From Acidimicrobiales bacterium (GTDB lineage Bacteria > Actinomycetota > Acidimicrobiia > Acidimicrobiales > RAAP-2): a stretch of DNA of 64,000 nt. The notes under the pieces are model-generated. The model did no database searches, was not told the DNA's origin, and worked only from the letters and a program-made list of their open reading frames with translations. Positions within the stretch are counted from its first letter, which is position 1; each line of letters starts with the position of its first letter. This document shows positions 37,959 to 42,422 of this stretch, piece after piece. The stretch covers positions 1 to 64,000 of the forward strand of contig JADMIJ010000005.1 of assembly GCA_015478655.1 (NCBI GenBank), in the 5' to 3' direction. The translations under genes and the position numbers were made by a program.

Positions 37959-38438
37959 ATGGGCATGCCGCTGCTGCTGGTCCGGCACGGGCATGCCGGG
38001 AGACGGAGCGCCTACCAGGGCGATGACCGGGCGCGCCCGCTCTCGAAGCGGGGGGTGGCACAAGCCCGCGCCCTGGTCCCACTGCTGAGCGACTTCCGAC
38101 CCCAGCGCATTCTGAGCAGTCCCTTCGTCCGCTGCTGTGAGACGGTGCGCCCGACGGCGGAGGCACTGGAGCTCTCCGTGGAGTCCATCGATGAGCTGGC
38201 CGAAGGGCATGGAGCCGATGCGTTGCGATTGATGGAGCGGATGGCGGGCGAGTCTGCCGTCCTCTGCACCCACGGGGATGTGGCCACCGAGGCGCTCGAG
38301 GCCCTGACCCCCGACAGCAGCGAGCGGAAGCGGCAGTCGATGCGTCTGCAGAAGGGCGACGTGTGGGTCATCCAGTCGACCGGCACCTCGCTGGCCATCG
38401 TCAGGCGCATCCGACCGGGCAGGGAGGCTGACCAATGA
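37959..38438 (+). CDS. Histidine phosphatase (SixA-like)
   Basis: 159 residues. The RHGHAG motif near residue 9 gives the phospho-accepting His (H10), PLSKRGVAQA follows, SSPFVRCCETV holds the second Arg, and CTHGD the second His. SixA-type phosphatases remove phosphate from small molecules or phospho-His proteins. ATG at 37959 with GGGAG upstream, or ATG at 37965. The following gene is murL, 123 bp away with its own promoter, so a link to peptidoglycan is only positional. Confidence 0.88.
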   Translation: MGMPLLLVRHGHAGRRSAYQGDDRARPLSKRGVAQARALVPLLSDFRPQRILSSPFVRCCETVRPTAEALELSVESIDELAEGHGADALRLMERMAGESAVLCTHGDVATEALEALTPDSSERKRQSMRLQKGDVWVIQSTGTSLAIVRRIRPGREADQ

Positions 38439-38545: not shown

Positions 38546-38551
38546 TACGCT
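38546..38551 (+). promoter_or_regulatory. Predicted -10 for murL
   Basis: TACGCT, 9 nt before the ATG of murL at 38561. It would give a leader of about 0-3 nt. Confidence 0.45.
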
Positions 38552-38560
38552 GATGCGGCC

Positions 38561-39922
38561 ATGAGCGACCCCGACCGGTTCAATCCGGACGACTTCGAAG
38601 CGTTTCGCGTCCTCGACCGATCCTTCGACCAACGGTCGCGGACCGCCTCGCTCCACTATGCGTTGGACCGGGGGCCGTCATTCGTCGAGACCATCACGTT
38701 CGAGACCGCGACCGGGGCATCGACGCCGGTGGACACGGCGGCGTTGGAGCGGGCCCTGCTCCACCTGCACATTGCCGCCGGTACCAGTTACTACAAGACG
38801 GCGGCACCGCCGGTGGTGTCCGTCGAATCCGATGACCTCAGCCCTGCGGAGGTGGCCTTCCACCGGCACCTGTACGACGAAGGGCTACGCGAGTTCGCGG
38901 TGGGCAACGGGCTCCCGGTGCCCCGGCCGGTCACCGTTGCCCCCCGGTCGTCGGCGTCCCGCCGGCCCCTGTCGGCGCGACCGGGAGGACCCCGGCGGCT
39001 GGTGGTCCCGATCGGGGGCGGAAAGGACTCGATGGTCCTCATCGAGGCCCTGCGACCCCTCAACCCGCAGCTGTTGGCGGTCAATCCCCATCGACTGGTC
39101 ACCGATCTGGCCGAGCAGGCCGGTCTGGATCTGCTGGTGGTGAGGCGAGAGCTCTCGCCGAACCTCTCGGCGCTCAATCGAGCCGGCGCCCGCAACGGCC
39201 ACGTGCCCATCACGGCCATCATCTCGCTCATCGCTGCCCTCGGCAGCACGATCTACGGCTATGACACCATCGCCATGGCCATCGAGCGCTCGGCCAGCGA
39301 GGAGACCGTGCTGGTCGACGGGGTCCCGGTCAACCACCAGTATTCGAAGAGCGTCGCGTTCGAGCGCCTGCTGGCCGGTCTGGTAGCCACCTCGATCGAT
39401 CCCGGCCTCACCTACGCCTCGGCGCTGCGTCCCTATTCGGAGTTGGCCATCGCCCGGGCCTTCGCCCCGCTCACCCGCTACCACCCCAACTTCTGCAGCT
39501 GCAACACGGTGTTCCGACAGTCGGCCGGAGCCGAGGACCGTTGGTGCGGCGAGTGCGCCAAGTGTCGGTTCGTCGGGCTGATGCTGGCCCCGTTCATGAG
39601 CCCGGAGGCGCTGTCCGCCGTCATCGGGCGTGACATGTTCGCCGATCGACTCCAGGTCGCCGGCTTTGCCGCCCTGATGAGCGACGACGACAAGCCGTTC
39701 GAGTGCGTGGGGGAGCGCCGCGAGTCGGCCGCCGCCCTGAGGATGCTGTCCGACCGGCCGGAGTGGAAGCAGTCGCCCGTGGTGGCAGCGCTGGCCGCCC
39801 GGGCCCGGGCCATGGTGTCGGACGCCGACATCGAGATGCTCCTGACCCCTGCGCCTGATCTGGCCTTCCCGGATCCCGAGGTGGCCGCGGCGGTCGACCG
39901 CTTCGTGGCCGTGCCGGCGTGA
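38561..39922 (+). CDS. murL: UDP-MurNAc-L-Ala-L-Glu epimerase MurL
   Basis: 453 residues. An ATP-PP-loop-like motif GGGKDS lies at 152-157, and the C-part has a Cys cluster FCSCNTVF ... WCGECAKCRF (C312, C314, C329, C332, C335). Both are features I associate with MurL, which inverts the terminal L-Glu of UDP-MurNAc-L-Ala-L-Glu to D-Glu using ATP. Its stop overlaps the start of a MurD-type ligase (GTGA), the known MurD2-MurL pairing of Xanthomonas and some actinobacteria. Together they replace MurI plus standard MurD. Confidence 0.85.
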   Translation: MSDPDRFNPDDFEAFRVLDRSFDQRSRTASLHYALDRGPSFVETITFETATGASTPVDTAALERALLHLHIAAGTSYYKTAAPPVVSVESDDLSPAEVAFHRHLYDEGLREFAVGNGLPVPRPVTVAPRSSASRRPLSARPGGPRRLVVPIGGGKDSMVLIEALRPLNPQLLAVNPHRLVTDLAEQAGLDLLVVRRELSPNLSALNRAGARNGHVPITAIISLIAALGSTIYGYDTIAMAIERSASEETVLVDGVPVNHQYSKSVAFERLLAGLVATSIDPGLTYASALRPYSELAIARAFAPLTRYHPNFCSCNTVFRQSAGAEDRWCGECAKCRFVGLMLAPFMSPEALSAVIGRDMFADRLQVAGFAALMSDDDKPFECVGERRESAAALRMLSDRPEWKQSPVVAALAARARAMVSDADIEMLLTPAPDLAFPDPEVAAAVDRFVAVPA

Positions 39923-41307
39923 ACCTCGACCAGCTGTGCGGCCGGCGGGTGGCAGTCTGGGGCCTCGGACAGGAGGGCCTGGCCATGGCCGCCTTGCTGG
40001 CCGGACGGGGCGTGATCCCGGTGCTGATCGACGATGACGTCGATGCCGCCTCGGCCCAGGCGGTCGCCGTGCTCGGCGGGGACTCCGTCGTGGTCGGCCC
40101 GGCCACCGTGACCTGGTCGGACCTCGACGCAGTGGTGCGGTCGCCCGGCGTGAGCCGGTATCGACCGGAACTGCTCGCCGCCGCCGCCTCGGGCGTCACC
40201 GTCACCACCGCCATGGCCCTGTGGCTGGAGGACTTCGCCGAGGCGCGTGTGGTGGCGATCACCGGCACCAAGGGGAAGAGCACCACGGCCGCCCTCACCG
40301 CCTCGATCCTCCGTGAGGAAGGCATGGAGGTGGCGCTGATCGGCAACATCGGGGTGCCGGTCACCGACATGTACGACCGTCCCCTGGTCGACGCCTACGT
40401 GGTGGAGGTGTCGTCGTACCAGGCCGCCGACGTCACCGTCTCGCCCGGGGTCTGCGTGTTGACCAGCCTGGCGCCGGACCATCTCGACTGGCACGGCGGC
40501 CAGGAGCCCTACTACCGGGACAAGCTGCGTCTCATCGAGGCCGGGCCTCCCGGCGCCCTGGCGGTCAGTGCAGCCAGCCCCGAGGCGGTGCAGCGGACCG
40601 AGCGTCACCCGGGCCGGACCCTGTTCGGACCCTCGGGCCGGGTCCGGGTCGCCCCATCCGGAGTGATCGAAGTCGACGGGGAGCCCCTAGTCGATTCCCG
40701 ACGGCTTCGAGCACCGGGCTGGCACAACCAGTGGAACCTCTGCGGTGCCGTTGCCGGCACCATGCTGCTCGAGGGCCGGCCTCCCTCGGCCCGCTCGGTC
40801 GCAGCCGCGGTGGACGCGTTCGAGGGCCTGCCGTCGCGCTGTTACACCATCGGCCGGCGTGACGGTCTCACGTTCGTCGATGACGCCCTGGCCTCCAACC
40901 CGTTCGCCACCATGGCATCGGTCGAGGCGTTCCCCGGGCGCCAGCTGACGGTCATCCTGGGCGGGGCCGACCGGGGCATCGACGTGGGTCCTCTGGTCGA
41001 GGCGCTTGCCCGTCGGTCACCGATCCCGACGGTGGTCGTGCTCCCACCCGATGGCCAGCGGCTGCGTGTCGCCCTCGACTCGCTCCCTGCCGCCGATCGG
41101 CCGCCCGTGCCGGTGCGAGAGGCCGATGACATGGTCGGCGCCGTGAGGGAGGCGGTGGCGTCGACGGCCGGCGGTGGCGTGATCCTCTTCTCGCCGGCCG
41201 CCCCCACTCCCGACGGTCAGGGAGGCTTCCGCGAACGCAGCCGCCAGTTCGCCGCCGCCTCGGGCGTGCCGGCGCCGCCGGCGCCCGGTCCCGGGCCGGG
41301 ATCCTGA
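39919..41307 (+). CDS. murD2: UDP-MurNAc-L-Ala--L-Glu ligase MurD2
   Basis: 462 residues with the three Mur-ligase domains. N-terminal UDP-binding Rossmann (VAVWGLGQEGLAMAAL), ATP P-loop GTKGKST at 116-122, VEVSSYQ and TSLAPDHLDWHGG, and C-terminal domain LASNPFATMASVEAF with ILGGADRGID. It adds L-Glu to UDP-MurNAc-L-Ala for the MurL route. GTG start overlapping murL. The C-terminal tail is Pro/Ala-rich. MurD proper is the alternative; the murL overlap supports MurD2. Confidence 0.87.
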   Translation: MNLDQLCGRRVAVWGLGQEGLAMAALLAGRGVIPVLIDDDVDAASAQAVAVLGGDSVVVGPATVTWSDLDAVVRSPGVSRYRPELLAAAASGVTVTTAMALWLEDFAEARVVAITGTKGKSTTAALTASILREEGMEVALIGNIGVPVTDMYDRPLVDAYVVEVSSYQAADVTVSPGVCVLTSLAPDHLDWHGGQEPYYRDKLRLIEAGPPGALAVSAASPEAVQRTERHPGRTLFGPSGRVRVAPSGVIEVDGEPLVDSRRLRAPGWHNQWNLCGAVAGTMLLEGRPPSARSVAAAVDAFEGLPSRCYTIGRRDGLTFVDDALASNPFATMASVEAFPGRQLTVILGGADRGIDVGPLVEALARRSPIPTVVVLPPDGQRLRVALDSLPAADRPPVPVREADDMVGAVREAVASTAGGGVILFSPAAPTPDGQGGFRERSRQFAAASGVPAPPAPGPGPGS

Positions 41308-41366: not shown

Positions 41367-42422
41367 ATGAGCCAGATCACGATCATCGAGGAGCACGCCC
41401 GAACGGTGGAGGCCGATCCCGACGCCGAGCACACGACGTTCCTCATCGACTCCGATCGGCTCCCCGATGCCCTGGGGTGGGAGTTGAAGCCCGCCGGCCT
41501 GTGCCAGGAGGACACCTGTGTCCCCGTCCTCCATCCTGCCGGCCTGTGCGTGGGGGACCGTCTCGACCTGGCGGCCGTGGCCGCGGCGCTGGGTCGACCG
41601 GCGGTCATCGACGTCGACGCCGGGCTCATGGCCGTGGCCCTGCCCGCCGAACTCCGGCGACAGGCGCTCGACGACCTGAGGGCCCCCGTGTTCGAGTTGC
41701 CGGATGTCGACGGGAAGCGACACCACCTCGACGAGTGGCTCGGCCTCAAGCGGTTGCTGGTGACCTTCTCGAGCTGGTGCGGTTGCCGCTACGACCTGCC
41801 GGGCTGGCAGGCACTGCACGACGAACTGCGTCCCCTGGGTTTCACCGTCATCGCCGTGGCCATCGACCACAGTCCCGACGATGTCCGGCCCTGGATCGAG
41901 GGGATCACCATGCCCGTTCTCTACGATCCCTACCATCTCCTGACCGAGCTCTATGCCATCTCCAACGTGCCCACCGTCGTGTGGATCGACGAGGAGGGCC
42001 ACATCGCCCGGCCCATCGGCGCCGCCCACGGCAGCGACCTCTTCGTCGAGTTCACCGGCATCGAGGCCAAGCCCCATCTCGACGAGGTGCGCCGGTGGGT
42101 CAGGGAGGGGGTCCTGCCCCTCACCGAGGACGATGCCCGCCTGGCGGTGGCCGATCTGTCCGAGGAGGAGGTGCAGGCCCGCCTGCACTTTCGAGTGGCC
42201 TCGGCGGCCCATCGGGAAGGCAGGGAAGAGGTCACCCGCCGTCACATCGCCCGGGCCTCCGAACTTGCCCCCGACGACCTCACCATCTGGCGGGCGGGCA
42301 TGCCCCTGGTGGGGGAGGATCCCTTCGGCGATGGCTTCATGGTGAAGTATGAGGCGTGGCTGGGGCGGGGGAGTCCCGCCCACGGGCTGCCGCCGGTGGC
42401 GGGCCCGGGCCCGGCGGCCTGA
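41367..42422 (+). CDS. Thioredoxin-fold (TlpA/redoxin-like) protein
   Basis: 351 residues. Residues 1-95 form a separate N-domain with three Cys in CQEDTC and GLCVGD; 100-245 is a thioredoxin/redoxin fold with FSSWCGCRYDLPGW (C138, C140), SNVPTVVWID with the cis-Pro, and IARPIGAAHG; 250-340 is helical. The usual CxxC is replaced by WCGC, a CxC motif. It could be a thiol oxidoreductase or peroxiredoxin-like protein. No signal peptide, so cytoplasmic. It is just downstream of murD2 and upstream of a hotdog gene, with a GGAGGAG site before its ATG. Confidence 0.75.
   Translation: MSQITIIEEHARTVEADPDAEHTTFLIDSDRLPDALGWELKPAGLCQEDTCVPVLHPAGLCVGDRLDLAAVAAALGRPAVIDVDAGLMAVALPAELRRQALDDLRAPVFELPDVDGKRHHLDEWLGLKRLLVTFSSWCGCRYDLPGWQALHDELRPLGFTVIAVAIDHSPDDVRPWIEGITMPVLYDPYHLLTELYAISNVPTVVWIDEEGHIARPIGAAHGSDLFVEFTGIEAKPHLDEVRRWVREGVLPLTEDDARLAVADLSEEEVQARLHFRVASAAHREGREEVTRRHIARASELAPDDLTIWRAGMPLVGEDPFGDGFMVKYEAWLGRGSPAHGLPPVAGPGPAA

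Follow-up and report, generated by a model that had tools for sequence, protein, structure and literature searches.

The MurD2-MurL pathway to peptidoglycan D-Glu has been described in Xanthomonas oryzae (XOO_1320/XOO_1319) and in Micromonospora and Salinispora (Feng et al. 2017, reviewed in PMC8788868), and orthologues from a Micromonospora sp. and from Salinispora tropica have been confirmed in vitro (PMC8788868). MurL is described there as a protein without known domains and with an unclear mechanism, for which adenylation has been proposed because AMP forms; Acidimicrobiia do not appear in the published list of MurL taxa (PMC8788868). Here, we analysed a stretch of 64,000 nt from an uncultured Acidimicrobiales bacterium (contig JADMIJ010000005.1; hereafter, the window), which encodes a MurL homologue immediately followed by a MurD-type ligase. 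We consider it very probable (roughly 0.92) that this murL-murD2 operon is the only recognisable route to peptidoglycan D-Glu in this actinobacterium, L-Glu being added and then inverted. The pathway itself is rare but already known, and Acidimicrobiia are an added lineage; the additions comprise this lineage, an Asp-type MurD2, a MurL-MurD fusion and a predicted QueC-like fold of MurL.

As in the Xanthomonas/Micromonospora pathway, both enzymes are full-length homologues, their genes are adjacent and MurI is absent. The order, murL then murD2 on one strand, is that of Xanthomonas, whereas the Micromonospora loci are divergent, and the host lineage differs from the published ones. With the classical MurI and MurD route the locus shares a ligase of the same Mur family, in which E. 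coli K115, E157, H183 and K198 are kept; it differs in that MurI is absent, murD lies outside the dcw cluster, and Lys319 and Lys348 are replaced.

In peptide chemistry, activated N-acyl amino acids undergo racemisation through an oxazolone, and for this reason such an intermediate is proposed here as a possibility. In the proposed pathway, the ligase would join L-Glu first, with inversion to D-Glu following. MurL would spend ATP on adenylating the alpha-carboxylate of the newly added Glu, which would leave the alpha-proton of that residue labile, and inversion may pass through a cyclic oxazolone. Both reactions and the formation of AMP are taken from published assays on homologues, while the QueC-like active site and the possible oxazolone are our own proposals; the genes, their linkage, the absences, the mutual exclusion and the signature residues described below were read from sequence.

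The classical route in the genome and across the class

The host genome is a 4.47-Mb draft of 347 contigs, 92.9% complete. It contains one MurL and one MurD over the model cut-off, both located in the window; the next-best places matched by the MurD profile score well under that cut-off, and two of them correspond to the dcw genes murC and murE. A genome search for Asp/Glu racemases (PF01177) and glutamate racemase (TIGR00067) returned nothing better than E 0.7. Consequently, the genome check proposed in the original prediction turned up neither MurI nor a second MurD. A D-amino-acid aminotransferase was considered as a D-Glu source and rejected, as the sole model match in the genome is IlvE, whose gene has leuB- and cimA-like neighbours. 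An assembled dcw cluster is present (ftsI-type penicillin-binding protein, murE, mraY, ftsW, murG, murC, murB and ftsZ), and murD was not found in its short mraY-ftsW gap; canonical murD adjoins mraY or ftsW in 30/30 loci from other genomes of the order. A murL locus with mraY and ftsW was encountered once in 110, in an alphaproteobacterial metagenome-assembled genome (MAG; L104) where murL-murD2 lies near or inside the dcw cluster.

Profile searches for MurL and MurI were extended to 296 genomes of the class, identifying MurL in 31 and MurI over cut-off in 166. None of the 31 murL genomes had MurI over cut-off, versus 166 of the 265 without murL (Fisher p 9e-13, a value that overstates the evidence because genomes are not independent samples). 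A weak MurI match in one murL genome (G141) proved to be an aspartate/glutamate-type racemase. In family f1, which includes this genome and the same-genus G231, murL occurs in 18/19 genomes and MurI over cut-off in 0/19.

Linkage of the two genes is constant within the class: murD lies directly 3' of murL on the same strand, mostly overlapping it, in all 30 loci fetched. Moreover, one distant family includes two genomes (G166 and G009) in which MurL and MurD form a single open reading frame (ORF) of about 860 aa (L017, 1354-3951; L023, 100-2682); these frames were read as assembled, and the two genomes agree. In the fused ligases, the residue equivalent to E. coli Asp182 is Cys. Among 80 named GTDB murL loci, murD is close by in most, and it is divergent from murL in Micromonospora, Couchioplanes and Symbioplanes. 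In a Thiotrichales MAG (L089) murL is present with no murD match within 5 kb, and in Patulibacter (L130) the murD match is more than 3 kb from murL on the opposite strand.

Signature residues of the ligase

The second gene encodes a complete Mur ligase, as had been anticipated, matching TIGR01087 over cut-off (E 2.1e-72, residues 10-447) together with three Mur-ligase Pfam domains. It was aligned with MurL-linked (102) and canonical (23) ligases, the latter being those that score best with the MurD model, a choice that biases the sample to typical MurDs. The E. coli Lys319 position is I/L in 102/102 MurL-linked ligases and K in 23/23 canonical ones, and the Lys348 position is R in 102/102 and K in 23/23, respectively; the window ligase presents Leu324 and Arg352 at these sites. 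Substitutions R358K and E197D in X. oryzae MurD2 have been reported to shift specificity, and K319T E. coli MurD accepts L-Glu (PMC8788868). The MurD of Streptococcus mutans, a D-Glu enzyme, bears Arg at the 358 position (PMC8788868), so that this Arg alone is not diagnostic beyond the present comparison.

With Leu324 and Arg352, yet Asp187 at the position of X. oryzae Glu197, the window ligase has two of the three residues reported to determine L-Glu use. Among the MurL-linked ligases, the Glu197 position is D in 35, E in 65 and C in 2, and Asp occurs in nearly all those of Acidimicrobiia. Since Asp is found in 35/102, Glu197 is seemingly not family-defining, and, judging from murL linkage, the published Glu197 is probably not required across the MurD2 family. 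Compared further with X. oryzae MurD2, the window ligase matches it at Arg358 and Pro433, and differs in having Asp for Glu197, Leu for Ile at the Lys319 position and Pro for Phe/Tyr at the Phe435 position. In a quick tree, a single split along a long branch separates MurL-linked from canonical ligases (Shimodaira-Hasegawa-like approximate likelihood ratio test, SH-aLRT, 99), and the window ligase sits in the MurL-linked clade. The comparison supports its assignment as a MurD2 with predicted use of L-Glu.

MurL family membership, predicted fold and alternative readings

Window MurL matches NF041275 (NCBIfam MurL) over its full length (residues 9-438; E 1.8e-116, 389 bits); an assignment to another ATP-PP-loop family, which the original prediction had named as adverse, did not result from the profile search. 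No Pfam family matched it, and PADLOC returned nothing. Among named relatives it is closest to those in Acidimicrobiaceae MAGs (63-67% identity), and in a tree its clade joins Micromonosporaceae (SH-aLRT 84); this grouping, together with the orthologues confirmed in vitro, places window MurL between verified groups. A literature match for 'MurL' (PMC2922099) was discarded, as it concerns aminoacyl-tRNA-synthetase-like peptide ligases.

The GGGKDS motif and Cys cluster recognised earlier in this protein were located at residues 152-157 and at C314, C329, C332 and C335. Across 110 MurL homologues, every position of GGGKDS is invariant except K155 (K in 89), and the four Cys are invariant. A fifth invariant Cys, C382 in an FECVG segment, is a candidate for a catalytic role. 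An AlphaFold2 model of MurL built from 30 homologues (predicted local distance difference test 93.8; predicted template modelling score 0.94) was structurally realigned (VIA), with QatC as the top match (Z 18.5, 312 residues), followed by QueC (13.3) and Cap9 (12.8); TtuA (Z 8.6, 172 residues), LarE and NAD synthetase all fell at Z 7-9. Alignment with hhalign against the QueCs of related genomes set GGGxDS on SGGxDS and CxxCxxC on the QueC zinc motif, with weak statistics (probability 14.5%, pairwise E 0.0019). None of 30 MurLs matched Pfam QueC (PF06508) even at E 1, and MurL is therefore not filed as a QueC-family member; a PDB sequence search gave chance repeats only. Zinc sites take the form C(x)19CxxCxxC in QatC and C(x)8CxxCxxC in QueC (PMC13279940, PMC13329287).

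Thus, it is the modelled structure and the collinear motifs, not sequence statistics, that support a predicted kinship of MurL with QueC. The likeness to QueC, QatC and Cap9 comprises the fold match of the model, the collinear PP-loop and the CxxCxxC part of the four-Cys motif; MurL differs in having GGGxDS for SGGxDS and in its predicted substrate, and amide or nitrile chemistry would not be expected of it. A QueC/QatC-like PP-loop fold would lend support to the carboxylate-adenylation mechanism proposed for MurL. We give even odds to the fuller proposal that MurL descends from a PP-loop enzyme of the QueC/QatC type and now acts as a carboxylate-adenylating epimerase that draws on the tendency of activated peptidyl amino acids to racemise (as the adenylate, possibly as an oxazolone), in which case a scaffold of base modification and phage defence would serve in cell-wall synthesis as well. 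MurL goes unmentioned in the two QueC-family papers PMC13279940 and PMC13329287; the link is possibly new, and as the wider literature was not covered exhaustively we claim no priority.

The same route could operate with MurL as a PP-loop protein outside the QueC/QatC branch, nearest to tRNA sulfurtransferases such as TtuA. TtuA chains indeed come first in a Foldseek search with the model, with poor superposition (root-mean-square deviation 8-19), and a PDB profile search gave only sub-threshold PP-loop matches, TtuA and TilS among the best of them. However, realignment puts QatC and QueC well over TtuA, and the Cys spacing of MurL fits the QueC/QatC zinc motif, making this placement rather unlikely.

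Several observations weigh against the operon being the sole D-Glu route. The ligase keeps Asp at the site of Glu197, and in X. oryzae MurD2 the exchange E197D altered stereospecificity. The MurL score lies far under the NF041275 equivalog cut-off of 700 bits, a value reached by no genome of the class; because the model is named for Xanthomonadales, its cut-off marks the MurL of that lineage, not the whole family, and on these scores the window protein is placed in the wider MurL family only, outside the Xanthomonadales equivalog. About 75 of the 296 class genomes match neither MurL nor MurI, some of them at least 95% complete (e.g. G145, G169 and G267), so that the MurL route does not follow from a missing MurI match alone; the class must contain either a further source of D-Glu or genes that escaped the search. 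In a draft at 93% completeness, a gene that is missing on its own may have fallen into a gap, a risk that the relatives lower and do not remove.

The ligase could instead be an ordinary D-Glu-adding MurD, with the MurL homologue doing another job (e.g. nucleotide or peptide modification) and D-Glu coming from an unrecognised racemase: the ligase scores over the canonical TIGR01087 cut-off and has kept the equivalent of E. coli Asp182, and MurL is under the NCBI equivalog cut-off. However, such an account, which we judge very improbable, leaves aside that neither MurI nor a D-amino-acid aminotransferase was found in the genome, that murL presence predicts murI absence across the class, and that the two genes are constantly linked and naturally fused. 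Lys319 and Lys348 are both replaced, as in every MurL-linked ligase, and Asp-bearing ligases predominate among those of Acidimicrobiia. Alternatively, the operon might be a redundant, horizontally acquired extra, with classical murI and murD hidden in the 7% of the genome that is missing from the assembly. The fragmentation of the draft allows for this, but the dcw cluster is assembled without murD between mraY and ftsW, 18 of the 19 genomes of the family carry murL and none carries MurI over cut-off, and the sole match, in G141, is not a MurI; we hold an extra of this kind to be extremely improbable. The MurD2-MurL reading advanced in the original prediction is thus the one supported, by the exclusion of murL and murI across the class and by the clade and signature residues of the ligase.

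Locus features and implications

The positions of both genes and of their overlap agree exactly with those first reported (Table 1). The two ORFs share 4 nt, GTGA, at 39919-39922, and from their arrangement murL and murD2 are read as a translationally coupled operon.

Table 1. Features of the murL-murD2 locus, in window coordinates
Feature	Coordinates	Strand	Basis
TACGCT, probable -10 box	38546-38551	+	conservation upstream of murL
murL	38561-39922	+	ORF of 453 aa, ATG start; NF041275 match
GGGKDS PP-loop (residues 152-157), predicted pyrophosphate-binding loop	39014-39031	+	homologue conservation; hhalign to QueC SGGxDS
Four-Cys motif C314-x14-C329-xx-C332-xx-C335, predicted QueC/QatC-like zinc site	39500-39565	+	conservation, alignment
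C382 in FECVG, fifth invariant Cys, candidate catalytic residue	39704-39706	+	conserved in 110/110
murD2 (MurD-type ligase)	39919-41307	+	ORF of 462 aa, GTG start; TIGR01087 match
Asp187, at E. coli Asp182 / X. oryzae MurD2 Glu197, canonical-like residue	40477-40479	+	alignment
Leu324, at E. coli MurD Lys319, MurD2 signature	40888-40890	+	alignment
Arg352, at E. coli MurD Lys348 / X. oryzae MurD2 Arg358, MurD2 signature	40972-40974	+	alignment

The operon had also been credited with its own TACGCT promoter. The hexamer is present, ending 9 nt upstream of the murL ATG, and TACG(C/A)T is found 9-10 nt ahead of the murL ATG in 6/6 close relatives (L011, L075, L076, L077, L078 and L079), among which the flanking sequence has diverged; a generic sigma-70 promoter scan gave no match at it, and the promoter reading is based on conservation. 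Its retention between differing flanks suggests a probable -10 box, from which murL would be transcribed with no leader or a very short one.

The gene upstream (37959-38438) encodes a histidine-phosphatase (SixA / MutT1 C-terminal-like), which also precedes murL in L075, L076 and L077. Downstream, 41367-42422 encodes a long ResA-like protein of the WAxxUGC family (NF041054, E 1e-55, under cut-off) with Cys (WCGC) in place of the U of the family name; this gene comes after murD2 in L076 and L077 too.

MurI is usually thought necessary for D-Glu, and an environmental actinobacterial branch appears to have replaced it, beyond the published MurL taxa and under the cut-off of the NCBI model. A two-residue diagnostic for MurD2 (319 not Lys, 348 Arg) holds in 102/102 MurL-linked ligases and in 0/23 of the canonical set. 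Furthermore, the QueC/QatC-like predicted fold offers a testable active site for MurL, the pathway of which is a proposed narrow-spectrum antibiotic target.
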